This document shows positions 39,389 to 45,877 of a stretch of DNA of 64,000 nt, piece after piece. Source of the stretch: Acidobacteriota bacterium (lineage in GTDB: Bacteria > Acidobacteriota > Terriglobia > Versatilivoradales > Versatilivoraceae); the NCBI GenBank assembly GCA_028875575.1, contig JAPPDF010000042.1, forward strand, positions 1 to 64,000. Direction: 5' to 3'. The first letter of the stretch is position 1. Every line of letters begins with the position of its first letter. The position numbers and the translations under genes are program-made. The notes beneath the pieces are model-generated. The model was not told the DNA's origin, did no database searches, and saw only the letters and a program-made list of their open reading frames with translations.

Positions 39389-39400
39389 TTGAAGCTGTTT

Positions 39401-39513
39401 CGGTTCGGCTTCACGCGGGACCGAACCGGAGTCGAAGATCCGGTGTCACGATCCGGCGACCAACGACCCGGTCAGGCACTCACCGCAGTCGCCCCGAGAG
39501 ATGACGTCTCGGG
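39401..39513 (+). promoter_or_regulatory. ftsZ leader with two perfect hairpins
   Basis: Hairpin 1: CGGTTCGG (39401-39408) pairs with CCGAACCG (39421-39428) over a 12-nt loop. Hairpin 2: CCCGAGA (39493-39499) pairs with TCTCGGG (39507-39513) over 7 nt. The ribosome site AAGGAG follows 12 bp after hairpin 2, and the ATG is at 39539. The leader may tune ftsZ translation or stability. Confidence 0.45.
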
Positions 39514-39538
39514 CGCTACCATGCCAAGGAGTGGAACC

Positions 39539-40726
39539 ATGGAATTGACCAAGCCCGATCGTTCCGTCAAGTTTCTGTTGGACGAGCCCCGTTCCAACGG
39601 TGCTGTCATCAAGGTCATCGGCGTTGGAGGAGGGGGCACCAACGCCGTTAACCGAATGATCGACGCCGGCGTCGAGGCCGTCGAATTCATCGTGGCCAAT
39701 ACCGACACGCAGGCCCTCCAGGTGTCTCGGGCACCGACCAAGCTGCAGATCGGCGCCAAGCTCACCAACGGTCTTGGAGCCGGGGCCGATCCCCACGTCG
39801 GCCGGAGTGCGGCCCTGGAGGATACGGACAGGATCATCGAGGTTCTGGAAGGGGCCGACATGATTTTCGTTGCGGCAGGTCTGGGCGGAGGTACGGGTAC
39901 GGGCGCGGCACCCATCATTGCCAACCTGGCGGCCGAACTGGGTGCGCTGACGGTGGCTATCGTGACCGAGCCATTCCTGTTTGAAGGGAAAAAGCGGAGG
40001 GTTCAGGCCGAACGCGGGCTGCAGGACATCAGGGCCTGTGTGGATACGGTCATTGCCATCTCCAACGAGCGATTGCTCCAGACCGTGGAAAGAGGCACCA
40101 GTTTTTCCCGGGCGTTCCAGGTAGCCGATGACATTCTGCGCCAGGGAGTTCAGGGGATTTCCGACATCATTCAGGTACCCGGCATCATCAACGTGGATTT
40201 TGCCGACGTGAAGGCGGTCATGCAGGGCATGGGCAGAGCCTTGATGGGAACCGGAACCGCCAATGGCGAAGAGCGTGCCGCGGAAGCCGCCAAACGAGCG
40301 ATCGCCTCGCCTCTTCTGGAGGATGTCTCCATTCAGGGAGCGAAGGGAATTCTCATAAACATTACGGGATCGGAGGAGCTACTTCTGCACGAGGTCAGTG
40401 AATCAGCTTCCATAATCCACGAAGCCGCCGACGAGGATGCCAATATCATTTTCGGCGCCGTGATCGACGAAAAAATGACGGACGATATGAAAATCACGGT
40501 TATTGCCACTGGATTCGACAACAACGGCGCCGAATCGACGATCCAGCCACCGGTCGGAGATTCCGTGGATCTGGAAGACTCCGCCAGCCAGTCTACAAGC
40601 CCCGACGCCCCGGAGCCCGAGGCGGTGACCGTTCCGGAATCCGGGATCCCGCCAGGCCAGGGTCGTCCCTATGACCCGCGCGACCTCGAGGTTCCCGCCT
40701 ACCTCCGCCGCAAATTCGACGATTAG
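39539..40726 (+). CDS. ftsZ: FtsZ tubulin-like division GTPase
   Basis: 395 aa. Tubulin signature [14 protein letters not shown] binds GTP; N-terminal [20 protein letters not shown]7 loop [11 protein letters not shown] with catalytic Asp, and the C-terminal conserved peptide [11 protein letters not shown] for FtsA/other partners are intact. A Ser/Pro/Glu-rich linker precedes that peptide. ATG at 39539 has AAGGAG 8 nt upstream. The in-frame upstream extension covers the leader hairpins and is rejected. Confidence 0.97.
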
Positions 40727-40738
40727 AGAAGCCGGTCG

Positions 40739-40768
40739 GCGCCGGACCGGGATTTCCCGGTCCGGCGC
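40739..40768 (+). terminator. GC-rich perfect hairpin after ftsZ
   Basis: GCGCCGGACCGGGA and its reverse complement flank TT (14-bp stem). It starts 12 bp after the ftsZ stop and ends 13 bp before the next start. No T-tract follows, so it may be a Rho-dependent pause site, an mRNA end-stabiliser or an attenuator instead of an intrinsic terminator. Confidence 0.55.
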
Positions 40769-40781
40769 AGGTAAAGACCTC

Positions 40782-41183
40782 ATGGGGGTCCAGATCGAAG
40801 CCGCCATCATCGACTCGATGGTGGAACATGCCCGATTGGAAGCCCCACTGGAGTGCTGCGGCCTGTTGATGGGGCAGGCCGGACGGATCACTTACCTTCG
40901 CAGGATGCGGAATCTGGCCCAAAGTCCCGTCCGCTACGAGATGGTTCCCGGGGAACTGTTTCAGTTTTTCAAGGATCTCCGAGGCTCGGGTCTGCGCCAT
41001 CTCGGAATCTACCATAGCCATCCCTCCTCCGAGGCTTATCCATCGGCGACCGATATCGCCCAGGCCTTCTATCCCGACTGCATCTACTTCATTCTTTCCC
41101 TGCTGGCGCCGGGCGTCCCTTCCGTGAGGGCTTTTTCCATCACGGAGGCTGGTGTCACCGAGCGGGCGATCCAGCGGATCTGA
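40782..41183 (+). CDS. JAMM/MPN+ (M67) metallopeptidase
   Basis: 133 aa, single Mov34/MPN domain. Zinc-site residues are complete: Glu24 in PLECCGLL, His78 and His80 in IYHSHPSSEAYPS, and Asp91 in ATDIAQAF, matching ExnHxHP...S..D. Bacterial members release ubiquitin-like sulfur carriers or cysteine in ThiS/MoaD-type pathways, or act in tail processing. No sulfur-carrier gene is adjacent. ATG at 40782 is used. It may read through from ftsZ past the hairpin. Confidence 0.85.
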   Translation: MGVQIEAAIIDSMVEHARLEAPLECCGLLMGQAGRITYLRRMRNLAQSPVRYEMVPGELFQFFKDLRGSGLRHLGIYHSHPSSEAYPSATDIAQAFYPDCIYFILSLLAPGVPSVRAFSITEAGVTERAIQRI

Positions 41184-41408: not shown

Positions 41409-41993
41409 ATGAGAATCGCGATGAGAGCTTGGAGAGGGTTGGGGACAACCCTGTTGCTGGCTGGGGTCGGTATTCCGGTTTTGGTTTCCGGGTTGGAAGC
41501 TACAACGGTGAAGCGGCTAAGCCTGGAGCAGATGGTTCGCGGGTCGCATCGCATCATGCTGGGCCGCTGCATTTCTCAGGACACCTACTGGAACAAGAGC
41601 CGAACGAGGATCTACACCGCCACCCGGTTTGCGGTGACGGAGGACCTGAAGGGAGAATCCCGGGGGACGGCCACGGTGGTGACGGTGGGCGGCACCATCG
41701 ACGGTATGACCCTGTTGGTTTCGGGAACGCCCAGTTTCAGGGTGCACGAGGAAGTGCTGCTTTTCCTGGAAGCCGGCAAGAGCGGTAACTGGATCCTCAT
41801 GGGACTCTCCCAGGGCATGTTCCGCATCACTGCCGATCGCCGGGGAGTCAGGACGGCCCATCATGCATCCTCCGGGCTTCGCTTGGTCGCCGGTTCGCCC
41901 GAATCGTCCTCACAAACACCGATTCCCAATCGGGTCGAGCTGGATCGGCTGTTGAGCAGGATCCGGCAACTCGTCGGCGACTCCGGCAAGTGA
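41409..41993 (+). CDS. Exported protein of unknown function
   Basis: 194 aa with a signal peptide (GLGTTLLLAGVGIPVLVSG). The mature part begins LSLEQMVRGSHRIMLGRCIS and continues as beta-strands (TRFAVTEDLKGES, ATVVTVGGTIDG, EEVLLFLEAGKSGNWIL); the pattern suggests a small beta-sandwich. I do not recognise a family. It lies 32 bp before the large matrixin-like gene on the same strand, and proteins of this pattern beside a secreted protease may be its partner, but that is an inference. Confidence 0.6.
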   Translation: MRIAMRAWRGLGTTLLLAGVGIPVLVSGLEATTVKRLSLEQMVRGSHRIMLGRCISQDTYWNKSRTRIYTATRFAVTEDLKGESRGTATVVTVGGTIDGMTLLVSGTPSFRVHEEVLLFLEAGKSGNWILMGLSQGMFRITADRRGVRTAHHASSGLRLVAGSPESSSQTPIPNRVELDRLLSRIRQLVGDSGK

Positions 41994-42025: not shown

Positions 42026-45000
42026 GTGTCATCCAATTCAGGCAGGAACAAGTCCGGCCGAGGCCCTTTGAGCGGTTGTGCCTCATCTGAGAATGCTTGC
42101 CCGCCCGGCAAGGCTCGCTACCAGCCGCTCCTCTGTCTGCTGGCAGCGGTTTTTGTCTGGTGGAATTCCCATTCGCCAGCCCTGGCCTTCGTTCCCTTCC
42201 TCAGCGGCGCCAAATGGAAAACCTTTCCGGTCGTCTACAAGATCCATCAGGGCGGCCTGCCTGCTACCGGCAACCGCAGCGAGTTCGTGGCTGTTCACGC
42301 CGGCTTTGAAGCCTGGGAAACCTTAGAGGATTCGGCGATTACCTTCTCTTACGGTGGCACAACCGAGACCCGGGCTGCCGCCCTGGACTACACCAACGTG
42401 ATCTCCTTCCAGGACGACAGTTTTGACTTCAGCTCGGGCGTGGTTGCGGTGACTCTCACCTTTTATTTTCGCAATGTCGAAGACCCTCCAATTGTGGATG
42501 CCGACATCCTCTTCAATCCCAACCAGATCTTCTCGAGCGACGGCGCACGCGGCACCTTCGATCTTCAGTCGATTGCCACCCATGAAATTGGACACCTCCT
42601 GGGGTTGGACCACACGGCCATCGTGTCGGCCACCATGAATCCAACGGCCGGTCTGGGAGTGACCTTCTTCCGGGTACTGCAGACGGATGACCGCATCGGA
42701 TGTTCGGTCCTATATCCTGAGCCCGCATTCAGTCGTTCTACCGGAGGGATTGAGGGAAGCGTTCTGCTCGACGGCGAAGGGGTCTTTGGCGCCCACGTGG
42801 TGGCCCTGGACGAGGAGGGGAGGGCGGTCACCTCGGCGCTTTCCGGCGAAGACGGCAACTACCGGATTTCAGGGCTACCCGCCGGTTCCTATACCGTTTA
42901 CGCCGAGCCCCTGGATGGGCCGGTGATGGAGCGCAACATTATCAAGCCCCGTGGTTCTGCGGACTTCAACACCCGATTCGCCACCACCTTCCTGGGGAGC
43001 GGTCCGGACAGCCAGGTCGGGGACCCGGTCGCGGTGAGCGCCGGCTCCACCCTTACGGGCCAGGATATCCCGGTCTCGCCTCCGGCTTTACCTCACCTGA
43101 ATCTCGACGATCCATTTCTGGGTACTCGCCTCCATAGGGGCGAGAAACGATCGATTCGAGTCTTTGGGGACGGACTTGGGTTTGGGAGCAGGTACTTCCT
43201 GCTGGGCGAGGGAATAGTCTTGGAATCGCCCAGGTCAATCGGTGGCAGTGGAGCGGAGATTCAGGTGAACGTGGAAGGCAGCGCACTCTTGGGTTCGAGG
43301 AGTCTGTTCGTGGAGAAAGGGGATGTCCTGGCGGCCTTGAGCGGGGGCCTGGAGGTAACCGAGCCGGGCCCGGAGGTTTCCGGAATCACTCCCCGTTCGG
43401 GCCCGCGCGCGGGGGGCACTTCGGTAACCGTCACAGGTTCGAACTTTGATCGCGACGCCATCGTGAGCCTGGACGGCATTCCTCTGAACGACCAGAAATG
43501 GCTGAACTCGGGGATGATTCAGGGGACTACCGGGCCCAACGGCTGCGGTTCTTACAACCTGCTGGTGATCAATCCCGACGGTAGCAGCGACAGCCTGCAG
43601 TCGGCATTCGATTCCGTATCGCCGGCGCCGACCATCGATTCCGTGACCCCCGGTTCGGCCGAGGTGACCTCGACGGTCACAATCTCCGGGCGCAACTTCG
43701 ATCCGGTGGCCGAGTACAACCGGGTTCGCTTCAACAACCATCCGGCGGAAGTGATCTCGGCAACGGTAAGCCGGATCGTCACGCTGGTTCCCTTCGGTGC
43801 CACCAGCGGTCCGGTTACAGTAGAGGTCTGCGGCAAGGTTGCCACCAGCAGCGAGTTCACGGTGCTGCCCTTGCAGCCCAGCCGGAACCGTCCCCAGCCG
43901 AGTTTCTCCTACCTGGATCTGAGCCGGGACCCGGAAGCCTCCCGGTTGGAGTTCCGGCTGGACGAGGAAGAGGACCGAACCCCCGACGACTCCTTCGCCA
44001 GCGTCGCCTTGCCCTTCAAGTTCGTCCTGTTCACCAGGGCGTTTCCGGAAGGGAGTCCGGTCAACATTTCCACCAACGGCTGGGTCTCGCTGACCCCTGC
44101 GGTTGGGGGGACGGCCGAATGGGAAAACGGCCGAATTCCCGGACACCAGGTGCCTCGTCCCGACCGTTCTGTCGGCCAGATGCCGGCCAACCTGATCGCC
44201 CCCTTCTTTCACGACCTGGTGGTTGGAGAGACCGACAGCGCCGTTTACACCCGCGTGCTGGGTGAGGCTCCCGACCGCCGTCTGATCATTGAATGGAAGA
44301 ACTTCAGCGCCTACGACGATGAGGACGACCCTGAACCGGACTACGCGACCCGGTTGACCTTTCAAGCGGTGCTCTATGAGGGGAGCAACGACATCGCCTT
44401 CCTCTATCGGCGCTTGCAAGGGCCCTTGACCCAAGGCGAAAGCGCCACCATCGGCCTTCAGAATGACCGACGCGACCGGGCCATCCAGTTCGGTTTCAAC
44501 CGGCCGCGGCTGTCCGAAGGCAGAAGTCTGTTTTTTCGTTTCAATCCCGAGGACGGCAGCTATGCCTTCGAGCAGTTTCTACCGCTGGTCACCGACACCG
44601 AAGAATTCCGCACCAACCTGGGCCTGACGGCCGACATCCTCTCCGGGGCCACTGTCGAGCTGACGCTGTTCGACCCCACCGGACAGCCGCTGGGTTCCCG
44701 GACCGAGAGCGTTTCCCGAGGTGGGCTGATCCAGCTCAACCACCTGGTTCGCCGCCTGCTGGGCAGCGGGTCCAGTAAGCTCTCCAATGTCTCCGGTTCG
44801 GTGCTGGTTTCCTCCGACCAGATGGTGTTTCCCTACGTCACCCAGATCGACAACCGGTCCAGCGACCCCAGCCTGGATTTGGGGGCCATGTCGGGCGGCA
44901 CCCGGCTGGGGATCCTCTCGACCACATCGGTAAACCAGTTTCGTTCCTCCCTGGTTGTTCTGAATGTTGGAGACACGACAGCCGACGTTTCCCTGATCCA

Positions 45001-45877
45001 GCGGGATGGAGGAGGCAGGCTGCTCCACCGCCAGCAGGTGGCCATCCCCGCACGCGGCCAGTTCCAGAGCCCGGACCTGCATGCCGACCTCGGAATCTCC
45101 AAGGTCTCCGGTCCCCTGGAGATCCAGTCCACCAACGGGGTGCCGCTGATTGCCACCTCACGGGTGTATGCGCTCGATTCCGGCACCAGCGGCTTCTTCC
45201 GCGGACTGGATCTGGAGGCAGCCTCCGGCCATGCGGTGATTCCCATCAGCCGGGAGAGCGGGGAGTTTCGCAGCAACCTGGGGATCACCAACCTCTCCGG
45301 GCAGCCGGCCAGGGTGCAGGTCCAACTGTTCGATTCCGCGGGGACCCGTCTCGGAATGACCAGCCAGCAGGTGCCGCCGTTCGGTCTGGTCCAGTTGAAC
45401 CGGGTAAACCGGCGGCTTTCCGGTTCAGGCGGGGGGGGTGACACTCTCGGTTGGATCCAGTTGGACGCCGACCGCCCCGTGGCTGGATTCGTGTCACAGA
45501 TCAACAACCAGACCAGCGATCCGGGATTTGCCCGGTCGGACGTGCTATCTTCCACCAAACTGCTGATACCCTCGGCCACCAATGTCAACCAGTTCCGATC
45601 CACGATCACCATCGTCAATGCGGGAAACGGGGGAGAGGCTCGTGTTCGGGTTCGTGTCCGAAACCGCCAGGGGCAAATCATTGGCGAGAGCCGGAGCCGA
45701 AACTTGCCCCCCAACGGGATTTTCCATCTGGACGATCTTCTGGGGAGCCTCGAGGTGCCGAGCAATTTCGGCCCGGTGGAAATCGAGTCCCTGAATGGTG
45801 TGCCCCTGCTGGCCGTGTCGCGTGTCTACAGCATCAATGACGATACCGGCGGCTTCTTCCTGGCACAGCCGTTTTAG
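42026..45877 (+). CDS. Large secreted matrixin-like metalloprotease with TIG and tandem beta modules
   Basis: 1283 aa. After a signal segment (LLCLLAAVFVWW, about residues 35-46) comes a zinc protease domain: HEIGHLLGLDH gives His186, Glu187, His190 and His196, with a Met-turn in SATMNPTAG, the metzincin/matrixin pattern. A carboxypeptidase-regulatory-like (CarboxypepD_reg) domain follows (about 237-300), then two IPT/TIG domains (about 450-617), a region with INISTNGWVSL-type beta sequence (about 625-840), and a C-terminal tandem duplication (about 850-1068 and 1070-1283). GTG at 42026 has GAGGAG 10 nt upstream. It probably degrades or binds extracellular protein. Confidence 0.75.
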   Translation: MSSNSGRNKSGRGPLSGCASSENACPPGKARYQPLLCLLAAVFVWWNSHSPALAFVPFLSGAKWKTFPVVYKIHQGGLPATGNRSEFVAVHAGFEAWETLEDSAITFSYGGTTETRAAALDYTNVISFQDDSFDFSSGVVAVTLTFYFRNVEDPPIVDADILFNPNQIFSSDGARGTFDLQSIATHEIGHLLGLDHTAIVSATMNPTAGLGVTFFRVLQTDDRIGCSVLYPEPAFSRSTGGIEGSVLLDGEGVFGAHVVALDEEGRAVTSALSGEDGNYRISGLPAGSYTVYAEPLDGPVMERNIIKPRGSADFNTRFATTFLGSGPDSQVGDPVAVSAGSTLTGQDIPVSPPALPHLNLDDPFLGTRLHRGEKRSIRVFGDGLGFGSRYFLLGEGIVLESPRSIGGSGAEIQVNVEGSALLGSRSLFVEKGDVLAALSGGLEVTEPGPEVSGITPRSGPRAGGTSVTVTGSNFDRDAIVSLDGIPLNDQKWLNSGMIQGTTGPNGCGSYNLLVINPDGSSDSLQSAFDSVSPAPTIDSVTPGSAEVTSTVTISGRNFDPVAEYNRVRFNNHPAEVISATVSRIVTLVPFGATSGPVTVEVCGKVATSSEFTVLPLQPSRNRPQPSFSYLDLSRDPEASRLEFRLDEEEDRTPDDSFASVALPFKFVLFTRAFPEGSPVNISTNGWVSLTPAVGGTAEWENGRIPGHQVPRPDRSVGQMPANLIAPFFHDLVVGETDSAVYTRVLGEAPDRRLIIEWKNFSAYDDEDDPEPDYATRLTFQAVLYEGSNDIAFLYRRLQGPLTQGESATIGLQNDRRDRAIQFGFNRPRLSEGRSLFFRFNPEDGSYAFEQFLPLVTDTEEFRTNLGLTADILSGATVELTLFDPTGQPLGSRTESVSRGGLIQLNHLVRRLLGSGSSKLSNVSGSVLVSSDQMVFPYVTQIDNRSSDPSLDLGAMSGGTRLGILSTTSVNQFRSSLVVLNVGDTTADVSLIQRDGGGRLLHRQQVAIPARGQFQSPDLHADLGISKVSGPLEIQSTNGVPLIATSRVYALDSGTSGFFRGLDLEAASGHAVIPISRESGEFRSNLGITNLSGQPARVQVQLFDSAGTRLGMTSQQVPPFGLVQLNRVNRRLSGSGGGGDTLGWIQLDADRPVAGFVSQINNQTSDPGFARSDVLSSTKLLIPSATNVNQFRSTITIVNAGNGGEARVRVRVRNRQGQIIGESRSRNLPPNGIFHLDDLLGSLEVPSNFGPVEIESLNGVPLLAVSRVYSINDDTGGFFLAQPF

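Follow-up and report, generated by a model that had tools for sequence, protein, structure and literature searches.

The window, a 64,000-nucleotide stretch of Acidobacteriota DNA, encodes a large secreted protease that ends in four beta modules and, immediately upstream, a small secreted protein of a family designated here as T (Table 1). The locus raises two questions: what the C-terminal modules are and do, and what the small upstream protein does for a protease that lacks a zymogen propeptide.

The protease gene carries a Shine-Dalgarno-like GAGGAG directly 5' of its ORF. Its product scores 47.1 bits with the Pfam matrixin profile (cut-off 24), and a Met-turn candidate, SATMNP (residues 201-206), lies downstream of the zinc motif. 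Two stretches match TIG domains (67.2 bits), and the original prediction of a matrixin-like protease with TIG domains is borne out by both Pfam results. Judged from its sequence, the product is a secreted matrixin that is probably active and that carries accessory Ig-like domains of the TIG, CarboxypepD_reg and nidogen-like types. The nidogen-like stretch, which lies between the TIG domains and the C-terminal modules, had been overlooked earlier; the matching region of one relative (L142) is similar to the C-terminal part of S8 peptidases from Streptomyces. The nearest NCBIfam model is NF041905 (MXAN_2677_2678 myxosortase-dependent metalloproteases), but the window protease reaches only 71.9 bits, far under the cut-off of 250, and no myxosortase tail is seen in its sequence. 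The catalytic domain starts approximately 10 residues past a signal-type hydrophobic stretch and therefore leaves no room for a propeptide. A cysteine-switch propeptide of the MMP zymogen type is absent from the window matrixin, in which the catalytic domain begins at residue 64.

Table 1. Features of the protease locus, with positions in the window
Feature	Position	Strand	Basis
Family T gene, small secreted partner protein, 194 aa	41409..41993	+	ORF call; relatives adjoin or fuse to matrixins
Matrixin ORF, 1283 aa, GTG start	42026..45877	+	ORF call
Peptidase_M10 (matrixin) domain, residues 64-230	42215..42715	+	Pfam PF00413
Zinc-binding motif HEIGHLLGLDH, residues 186-196	42581..42613	+	Sequence; fits HExxHxxGxxH
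CarboxypepD_reg-like domain, residues 242-294	42749..42907	+	Pfam PF13620, 38.7 bits
First TIG domain, residues 449-525, followed by second TIG	43370..43600	+	Pfam PF01833
Weak nidogen-like stretch, residues 748-827	44267..44506	+	Pfam, under cut-off
Module A1, residues 847-957, ASRT-like beta-sandwich	44564..44896	+	Self-alignment, profile comparison
Module B1, residues 958-1066, ASRT-like beta-sandwich	44897..45223	+	Self-alignment, profile comparison
Module A2, residues 1067-1175	45224..45550	+	AF2 model matches 2ii8 (ASRT)
Module B2, residues 1176-1283	45551..45874	+	AF2 model matches 1nc7 (TM1070)

Family T is unnamed, and relative to Pfam, NCBIfam and the literature outside subscription journals it is undescribed. 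That literature yielded nothing on point for matrixins in Acidobacteriota, matrixin inhibitors or propeptides, or bacterial TIMP/NTR homologues, and nothing on Versatilivorator. The mature part of the window protein probably begins at A31/T32 (position 41499). An A-T-T start directly behind the signal segment is conserved among 30 members (A31 in 24, T32 in 26, and T33 in 24), and each of these members has no cysteine or a single one in its mature part. The window protein has no Pfam match up to E 1, and a Pfam scan of the 30 members found no TIMP, NTR, or Inh domain, with four members weakly matching DUF4131 (best E 0.025). A profile search of PDB sequences returned an unrelated best match at E 1.3. 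The AlphaFold2 model, built with four near-identical sequences, is poor (pLDDT 50.2); in this low-confidence model, a helix (9-15) and five strands (18-31, 37-49, 60-66, 86-92, and 97-103) are predicted, and its fold search gave no Foldseek match below E 0.09. No T relatives were found in plasmids.

Among 41 related genomes, 31 carry T relatives, as do 84 of 199 genomes sampled from the phylum; the phylum-wide set comprises approximately 150 T places. Within the related genomes, 35 of 40 T places have a Peptidase_M10 match on the same strand at most 2.5 kb downstream (five have no matrixin), and T accompanies 34 of the 49 M10 matches of at least 24 bits. The best 20 phylum contexts by score include 16 with a separate matrixin and three with a fused one. 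Elsewhere in the phylum, 34 ORFs carry the T domain fused N-terminal to a matrixin, the position of a propeptide; because 20 further phylum contexts (L197-L216) were picked for long open frames, the fusion count is not a frequency. Locus L186 has a T gene without an adjoining matrixin, and at L137, where the contig ends inside the gene, and L136 a matrixin is either not judgeable or absent within approximately 2 kb. All 29 T-paired matrixins that were inspected lack a PRCG-type cysteine switch. The distance from signal segment to HExxH is 123-203 residues in the 19 of these 29 for which a segment was found, by a crude estimate that failed or picked an internal stretch in the other 10. Three strong matrixins without T bear a long extension at their own N-terminus. 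This distribution suggests that family T is dedicated to matrixins throughout the phylum, as neighbor or N-terminal fusion, and serves as a built-in inhibitor or folding helper, and it brings to light an unnamed protein family that is linked to these proteases across the phylum.

T would most likely act as a prodomain in trans that is made just ahead of the protease; other lineages make it as the N-terminal part of the enzyme. As a small, exported, predicted all-beta protein, it would bind in the periplasm to the matrixin domain and either keep the enzyme inactive or aid its folding until release. In its working, such a trans or cis prodomain or inhibitor may resemble AprI or TIMP, although it matches neither by sequence. 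If T is an inhibitor or prodomain, it would explain the latency of bacterial matrixins without a cysteine switch and reveal a propeptide that has switched between cis and trans inside one phylum.

TIMP and NTR proteins (PF00965 and PF01759) are OB-fold inhibitors of matrixins, and the predicted order of elements in T presumably resembles that of the TIMP N-domain. Unlike these proteins, T matches the TIMP and NTR profiles at none of its places and is nearly or wholly free of cysteine in its mature part. The TIMP profile gave 16 weak matches in 199 genomes, none over the cut-off and none at the window T gene, while the NTR profile matched no T place in 25 genomes. Likewise, the Inh profile (PF02974) gave 13 weak matches in 25 genomes including T carriers, none of them at a T place. 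TIMP/NTR homology was supported neither by these profiles nor by the PDB-sequence search nor by the 30-member scan, and the likeness therefore stays an analogy.

AprI/Inh (PF02974) offers a second comparison. Like it, T is small, exported, predicted to be all-beta, and encoded beside an M10 protease; unlike it, T is also found fused N-terminal to the protease. In AprI, signal cleavage exposes an N-terminal residue that coordinates the zinc of the protease, as stated in the accessible text of PMC4070987, and the conserved A-T-T start of T directly behind its signal segment is a further likeness. On a bolder proposal, T would be an undescribed class of matrixin prodomain, in trans and in cis, that in Acidobacteriota takes the place of the cysteine-switch propeptide and inhibits through its signal-peptidase-made N-terminus at the zinc, as AprI does. 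T would then be a bacterial equivalent of TIMP and would record an interconversion between propeptide and inhibitor; this proposal is tentative and rather doubtful.

The leading alternative, possible but not probable, is that T helps the matrixin as a secretion chaperone or foldase, or forms a structural N-terminal domain, and that the protease is active with T bound. Propeptides of many proteases are foldases, and fused T remains in one polypeptide with its matrixin. At locus L177, T is kept next to a matrixin whose zinc motif is degraded (HNVGHFIGLGE), where a pure inhibitor would be needless. However, a foldase role alone leaves both the missing cysteine switch and the absent propeptide unexplained, and the foldase and inhibitor roles are compatible.

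The C-terminal region is composed of four modules of approximately 110 residues (220 per A-B pair), whose strands FRTNLGL, FRSSLVV, FRSNLGI, and FRSTITI begin at residues 861, 972, 1081, and 1190. In Smith-Waterman comparisons against 300 shuffles, same-type copies reach z = 25.7 (A1-A2) and 29.7 (B1-B2), so a two-fold duplication is certain. Cross-type scores are lower: 7.2 for A2-B2, 4.3 for A1-B2, 3.0 for B1-A2, and 0.0 for A1-B1. Between single window copies the A-B relation is thus weak, yet sequence profiles make it certain (HHalign E 4.5e-18, probability 99). Both tests agree with the earlier description of residues 850-1283 as four related beta modules in two A-B pairs, here placed at 847-1283.

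The modules belong to the ASRAH superfamily (ASRT/TM1070; Pfam PF07100), described by De Souza, Iyer and Aravind in 2009 (PMC2739507), and have a known, though seldom recognized, fold and not a new one; this assignment, drawn from a model and from sequence, is made because the fold match, the ASRT profile comparison, and a conserved strand-2 Asn agree. The A2-B2 structure is an AlphaFold2 model of medium confidence (mean pLDDT 69.5) that is consistent with the eight-stranded beta-sandwich of TM1070/ASRT. Modeled A2 matches the Anabaena sensory rhodopsin transducer (2ii8; Z 9.9, rmsd 2.2, 85 residues) and modeled B2 independently matches Thermotoga TM1070 (1nc7; Z 11.8, rmsd 2.3, 102 residues), members of one small family, while the best unrelated structure reaches Z 6.3. 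The A profile aligns with eight ASRT sequences at probability 87 and E 3.6e-6, scoring 34.5 where 100 column shuffles reach no more than 15.2, and the B profile scores 27.2 against a shuffle maximum of 18.5. In the module alignments, strand 2 ends with Asn in 90% of the rows for A (126 in all) and 98% of those for B (90 in all); three of the four window copies also have it, A1 having Ala.

Several hallmarks of ASRAH or of the ASRT family are missing. In the alignment columns near strand 1 of A, the diagnostic strand-1 Trp makes up 0-3% of residues, and no window copy has it; the accessible text of PMC2739507 calls it well conserved and does not call it invariant. According to the same text, the ASRT signature is SHEshChhN, in place of which the window modules have FRSNLGITN, with the ligand residues H and C replaced by R and G. 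PF07100 is absent from the Pfam matches of the window ORF, and searched up to E 1 it matches nothing in the genome from which the window comes. The shared features are the fold, the in-register profile similarity, the strand-2 Asn, and occurrence in twos or fours, since secreted ASRAH forms are dyads or tetrads in that account. Attachment to a matrixin and to propellers, both seen in the window's family, is not among the pairings mentioned there.

In this family, the modules form a general C-terminal tail on diverse, unrelated secreted proteins. Among 31 ORFs with a strong pair match, 30 contain two or four modules and 26 end at most 20 residues past the pair, whereas approximately 126 residues follow it in three (L066-L068). 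No module relatives were found in plasmids or viral contigs. The most likely binding partner of the tetrad is a carbohydrate or some other surface ligand; sugar-like ligand binding by ASRAH is also a prediction in PMC2739507, in its accessible text. At the cell surface, or on the sponge or biofilm matrix, the tetrad would retain the matrixin, just as it would many unrelated proteins that these bacteria secrete. A moderately likely account of the locus combines a secreted matrixin, a ligand-binding or retaining ASRAH tetrad, and T as a trans prodomain.

A somewhat unlikely alternative casts the tetrad as a signal for sorting or anchoring, with a function like that of the C-terminal domain of type IX secretion, instead of a ligand-binding module. 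The terminal position in 26 of 31 ORFs and the unrelated hosts are what a sorting tail would have. However, such tails are normally single, whereas these modules come in twos or fours as the ASRAH rule holds (PMC2739507, accessible text), and L066-L068 extend well beyond the pair. The ASRAH assignment brings an unannotated, expanded tail of sponge-associated Acidobacteriota into an established superfamily of small-molecule-binding domains, so that a testable function can be proposed for many proteins together.

It is highly improbable that the modules are generic Ig-like spacers resembling ASRT by fold-level convergence of beta-sandwiches, as the weak, mixed Foldseek matches of the module model (best E 2.5e-4, TM 0.24) and the missing Trp might suggest, given that A2 and B2 pick the same small family well above any other, that the ASRT profile score exceeds shuffles in the same register with the Asn kept, and that a related protein passes the cut-off of the Pfam family DUF5719 (PF18986).

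DUF5719 covers the ASRAH superfamily in part. It misses the window copies (17.1 bits, cut-off 26.2), and to that extent the original prediction of an architecture not met as a named family stands; the fold itself had been published in 2009, and L042, a same-family protein with four modules, scores 36.2 bits with DUF5719. The modules differ from DUF5719 in forming a C-terminal tail and not a stand-alone protein. Nor do they represent a familiar domain that matrixins often carry: the domain itself was known, but most of its carriers in the genomes searched are other secreted proteins. An iterated model seeded from the window recovers one of eight fetched DUF5719-profile loci at iteration 0 and all eight from iteration 1.

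The matrixin of the window is a secreted protein of 1283 residues that begins at a GTG codon, with the Shine-Dalgarno-like sequence GAGGAG immediately 5' of it. Its genome (4.49 Mb) belongs to the Acidobacteriota, and near-identical genes occur in MAGs labelled Candidatus Versatilivorator vitaminiformans and in further Acidobacteria bins. Pfam places Matrixin, CarboxypepD_reg, and two TIG domains above cut-off, and NIDO and DUF5719 (PF18986) below it. The C-terminal repeat of this protein is real, and its modules belong to an established superfamily that is met here in an unusual context. The repeat alone is of modest interest; the pairing of the matrixin with T, a small secreted protein family encoded just upstream and found via the neighbourhood, adds to it.

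Features of the T-matrixin pair in the window
Feature	Coordinates	Strand	Basis
T gene, 194-aa exported protein	41409-41993		ORF call
Matrixin ORF	42026-45877	+	ORF call

Matrixin residues 847-1283 comprise four beta modules, A1, B1, A2, and B2, of 108-111 residues each. Over 300 shuffles, A1-A2 stands out by 25.7 standard deviations and B1-B2 by 29.7, while A-B comparisons range from 0 to 7.2; the A and B module profiles match at E 4.5e-18. By these shuffle scores and the profile match, all four modules are homologous, with the A-B pair duplicated as one unit, which bears out the original observation of two A-B pairs of related modules.

That the architecture lacked a family name had also been proposed; the uncommon setting stands, but the modules match a known superfamily in fold and profile. 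This is ASRAH, which holds the Anabaena sensory rhodopsin transducer (ASRT, PF07100) and TM1070. An AlphaFold2 model of the A2-B2 pair, built from 12 alignment rows, is all-beta with pLDDT 69.5, and Foldseek returns only weak beta-sandwich matches to it. In VIA-align, B2 matches TM1070 (1nc7; Z 11.8, rmsd 2.3, 102 residues) and A2 matches ASRT (2ii8/2ii9/2ii7; Z 9.8-9.9, rmsd 2.2-2.4, 85-86 residues); the row following the ASRT/TM1070 structures has Z 6.3. Against a profile of eight ASRT proteins from plasmids and genomes, with 100 column shuffles as control, HHalign scores the A profile at 34.5 (E 3.6e-6, probability 87; shuffle maximum 15.2) and the B profile at 27.2 (E 2e-4, probability 47; shuffle maximum 18.5). 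Three ASRT rows alone give E 1.6e-4 and 2.5e-4.

According to the 2009 ASRAH description (PMC2739507), strand 2 ends in a nearly invariant Asn, strand 1 carries a Trp, the fold has a ligand cleft, and secreted forms come as dyads or tetrads. As in that account, the Asn is kept in 90% of A and 98% of B modules and the dyad/tetrad rule holds in the window family; the strand-1 Trp described there is not conserved in the modules. By predicted fold and profile, the modules are filed as divergent ASRAH members rather than ASRT proper, and the window copy is not filed as Pfam DUF5719. Sugar binding is inferred, both in PMC2739507 and here.

With the window C-terminal region as query, matches occur in 16 of 41 related genomes (maximum 25 in one), nearly all within the window's own family. 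A module HMM built from both copies in the window and refined by iteration across 940 ORFs of fetched loci finds 171 domains in 86 ORFs; it recovers one of eight loci fetched by the DUF5719 profile at iteration 0 and all eight from iteration 1. A strong pair match is seen in 31 ORFs, with redundant orthologues and shorter versions of a locus already counted removed. Two modules occur in 19 of these, four in 11, and three in one, and in 26 the C-terminus lies within 20 residues of the module pair. The hosts among 10 representatives include lactonase/YNCE, NHL or kelch propellers, glucose/sorbosone dehydrogenase, CHRD, metallophosphatase, purple-acid-phosphatase-N/fn3, and TIG proteins; TIG (9), fn3 (6), Lactonase (5), and DUF5719 (5) are the commonest Pfam families among 41 scanned members. 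Therefore, the tail is not protease-specific. Weak PF07100 matches are also concentrated in ORFs of great length (500-3000 aa) from genomes G160 (L160, G160:C1), G161, and G092, which suggests that ASRAH-like modules may be widespread in giant secreted proteins of Acidobacteriota.

A Pfam scan of the window T protein gives no match at E 1 or better, and an NCBIfam scan gives one meaningless match. T is present in 30 of 41 related genomes by single-sequence search, and a 30-row profile finds it in 31 of these and in 84 of 199 genomes sampled from the phylum. An HExxHxxGxxH ORF lies directly downstream on the same strand in 29 of 31 contexts fetched around related-genome matches, the exceptions being L136 and L137, the latter on a contig that stops inside the gene. 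By coordinate tables, a Peptidase_M10 (PF00413) match follows 114-866 bases downstream at 35 of 40 T places, and T lies upstream of 34 of 49 M10 matches scoring at least 24 bits. This adjacency cannot be chance, because each genome has only one to a few matrixins.

T also occurs fused to matrixins. Of the 20 best-scoring phylum contexts (L177-L196, taken outside G015 and the window's genome, G000), a separate matrixin lies downstream in 16, three are fused, and one (L186) has no matrixin; two of the 16 matrixins, those of L177 and L189, are found by Pfam only, since their zinc motif does not fit the pattern. A further 20 contexts, picked for long open frames, comprise 19 loci with fusions (L197-L215) and one, L216, with the matrixin as a neighbour. 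The ORFs with T on the N-terminal side of the zinc motif total 34, and Pfam confirms Peptidase_M10 in the seven of them scanned, six above cut-off and L185 at 23.7 against 24. At one locus, L197 (G204:C38:112000-131500), the fused form has multiplied locally, with five fusion ORFs in 19.5 kb.

T is proposed to act as a prodomain or inhibitor of its partner, and several features point that way. No cysteine-switch motif was found in the 29 T-partnered matrixins (29/29), and where the signal segment is placeable (19 proteins), 123-203 residues separate it from HExxH, roughly the length that the catalytic domain takes up by itself. T is produced immediately ahead of the protease and, in fusions, stands in the position expected of a propeptide. 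A conserved A-T-T (24, 26, and 24 of 30) starts T right after its signal segment and is less conserved in fused forms. In AprI, which inhibits the M10 protease aprA, a residue that signal cleavage frees coordinates the zinc (PMC4070987); the likeness of T to AprI would be functional only, by analogy, as the Inh profile does not match T. TIMP and NTR profiles likewise give no match to T, and its predicted structure is too poor for naming a fold. Three strong T-less matrixins (L258, L259, L260; 130-141 bits) have, ahead of the catalytic domain, a long and conserved N-terminal extension of their own that may be a prodomain of another type; the remaining T-less M10 matches are mostly short, different proteins.

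A chaperone role for T is a real rival, because at L177 T adjoins a matrixin with a degraded zinc motif, which argues against inhibition. This matrixin-family protein with TIG domains (L177:5108-8950, +) has the motif HNVGHFIGLGE and is probably inactive, and the T gene is still upstream.

In the window, an FtsZ-like ORF, recognized from its translation by eye, and a JAB-domain protein (Pfam Prok-JAB) occupy 39389-41183, ahead of the T-matrixin pair, and the pair appears to sit close to where a cell-division cluster ends.
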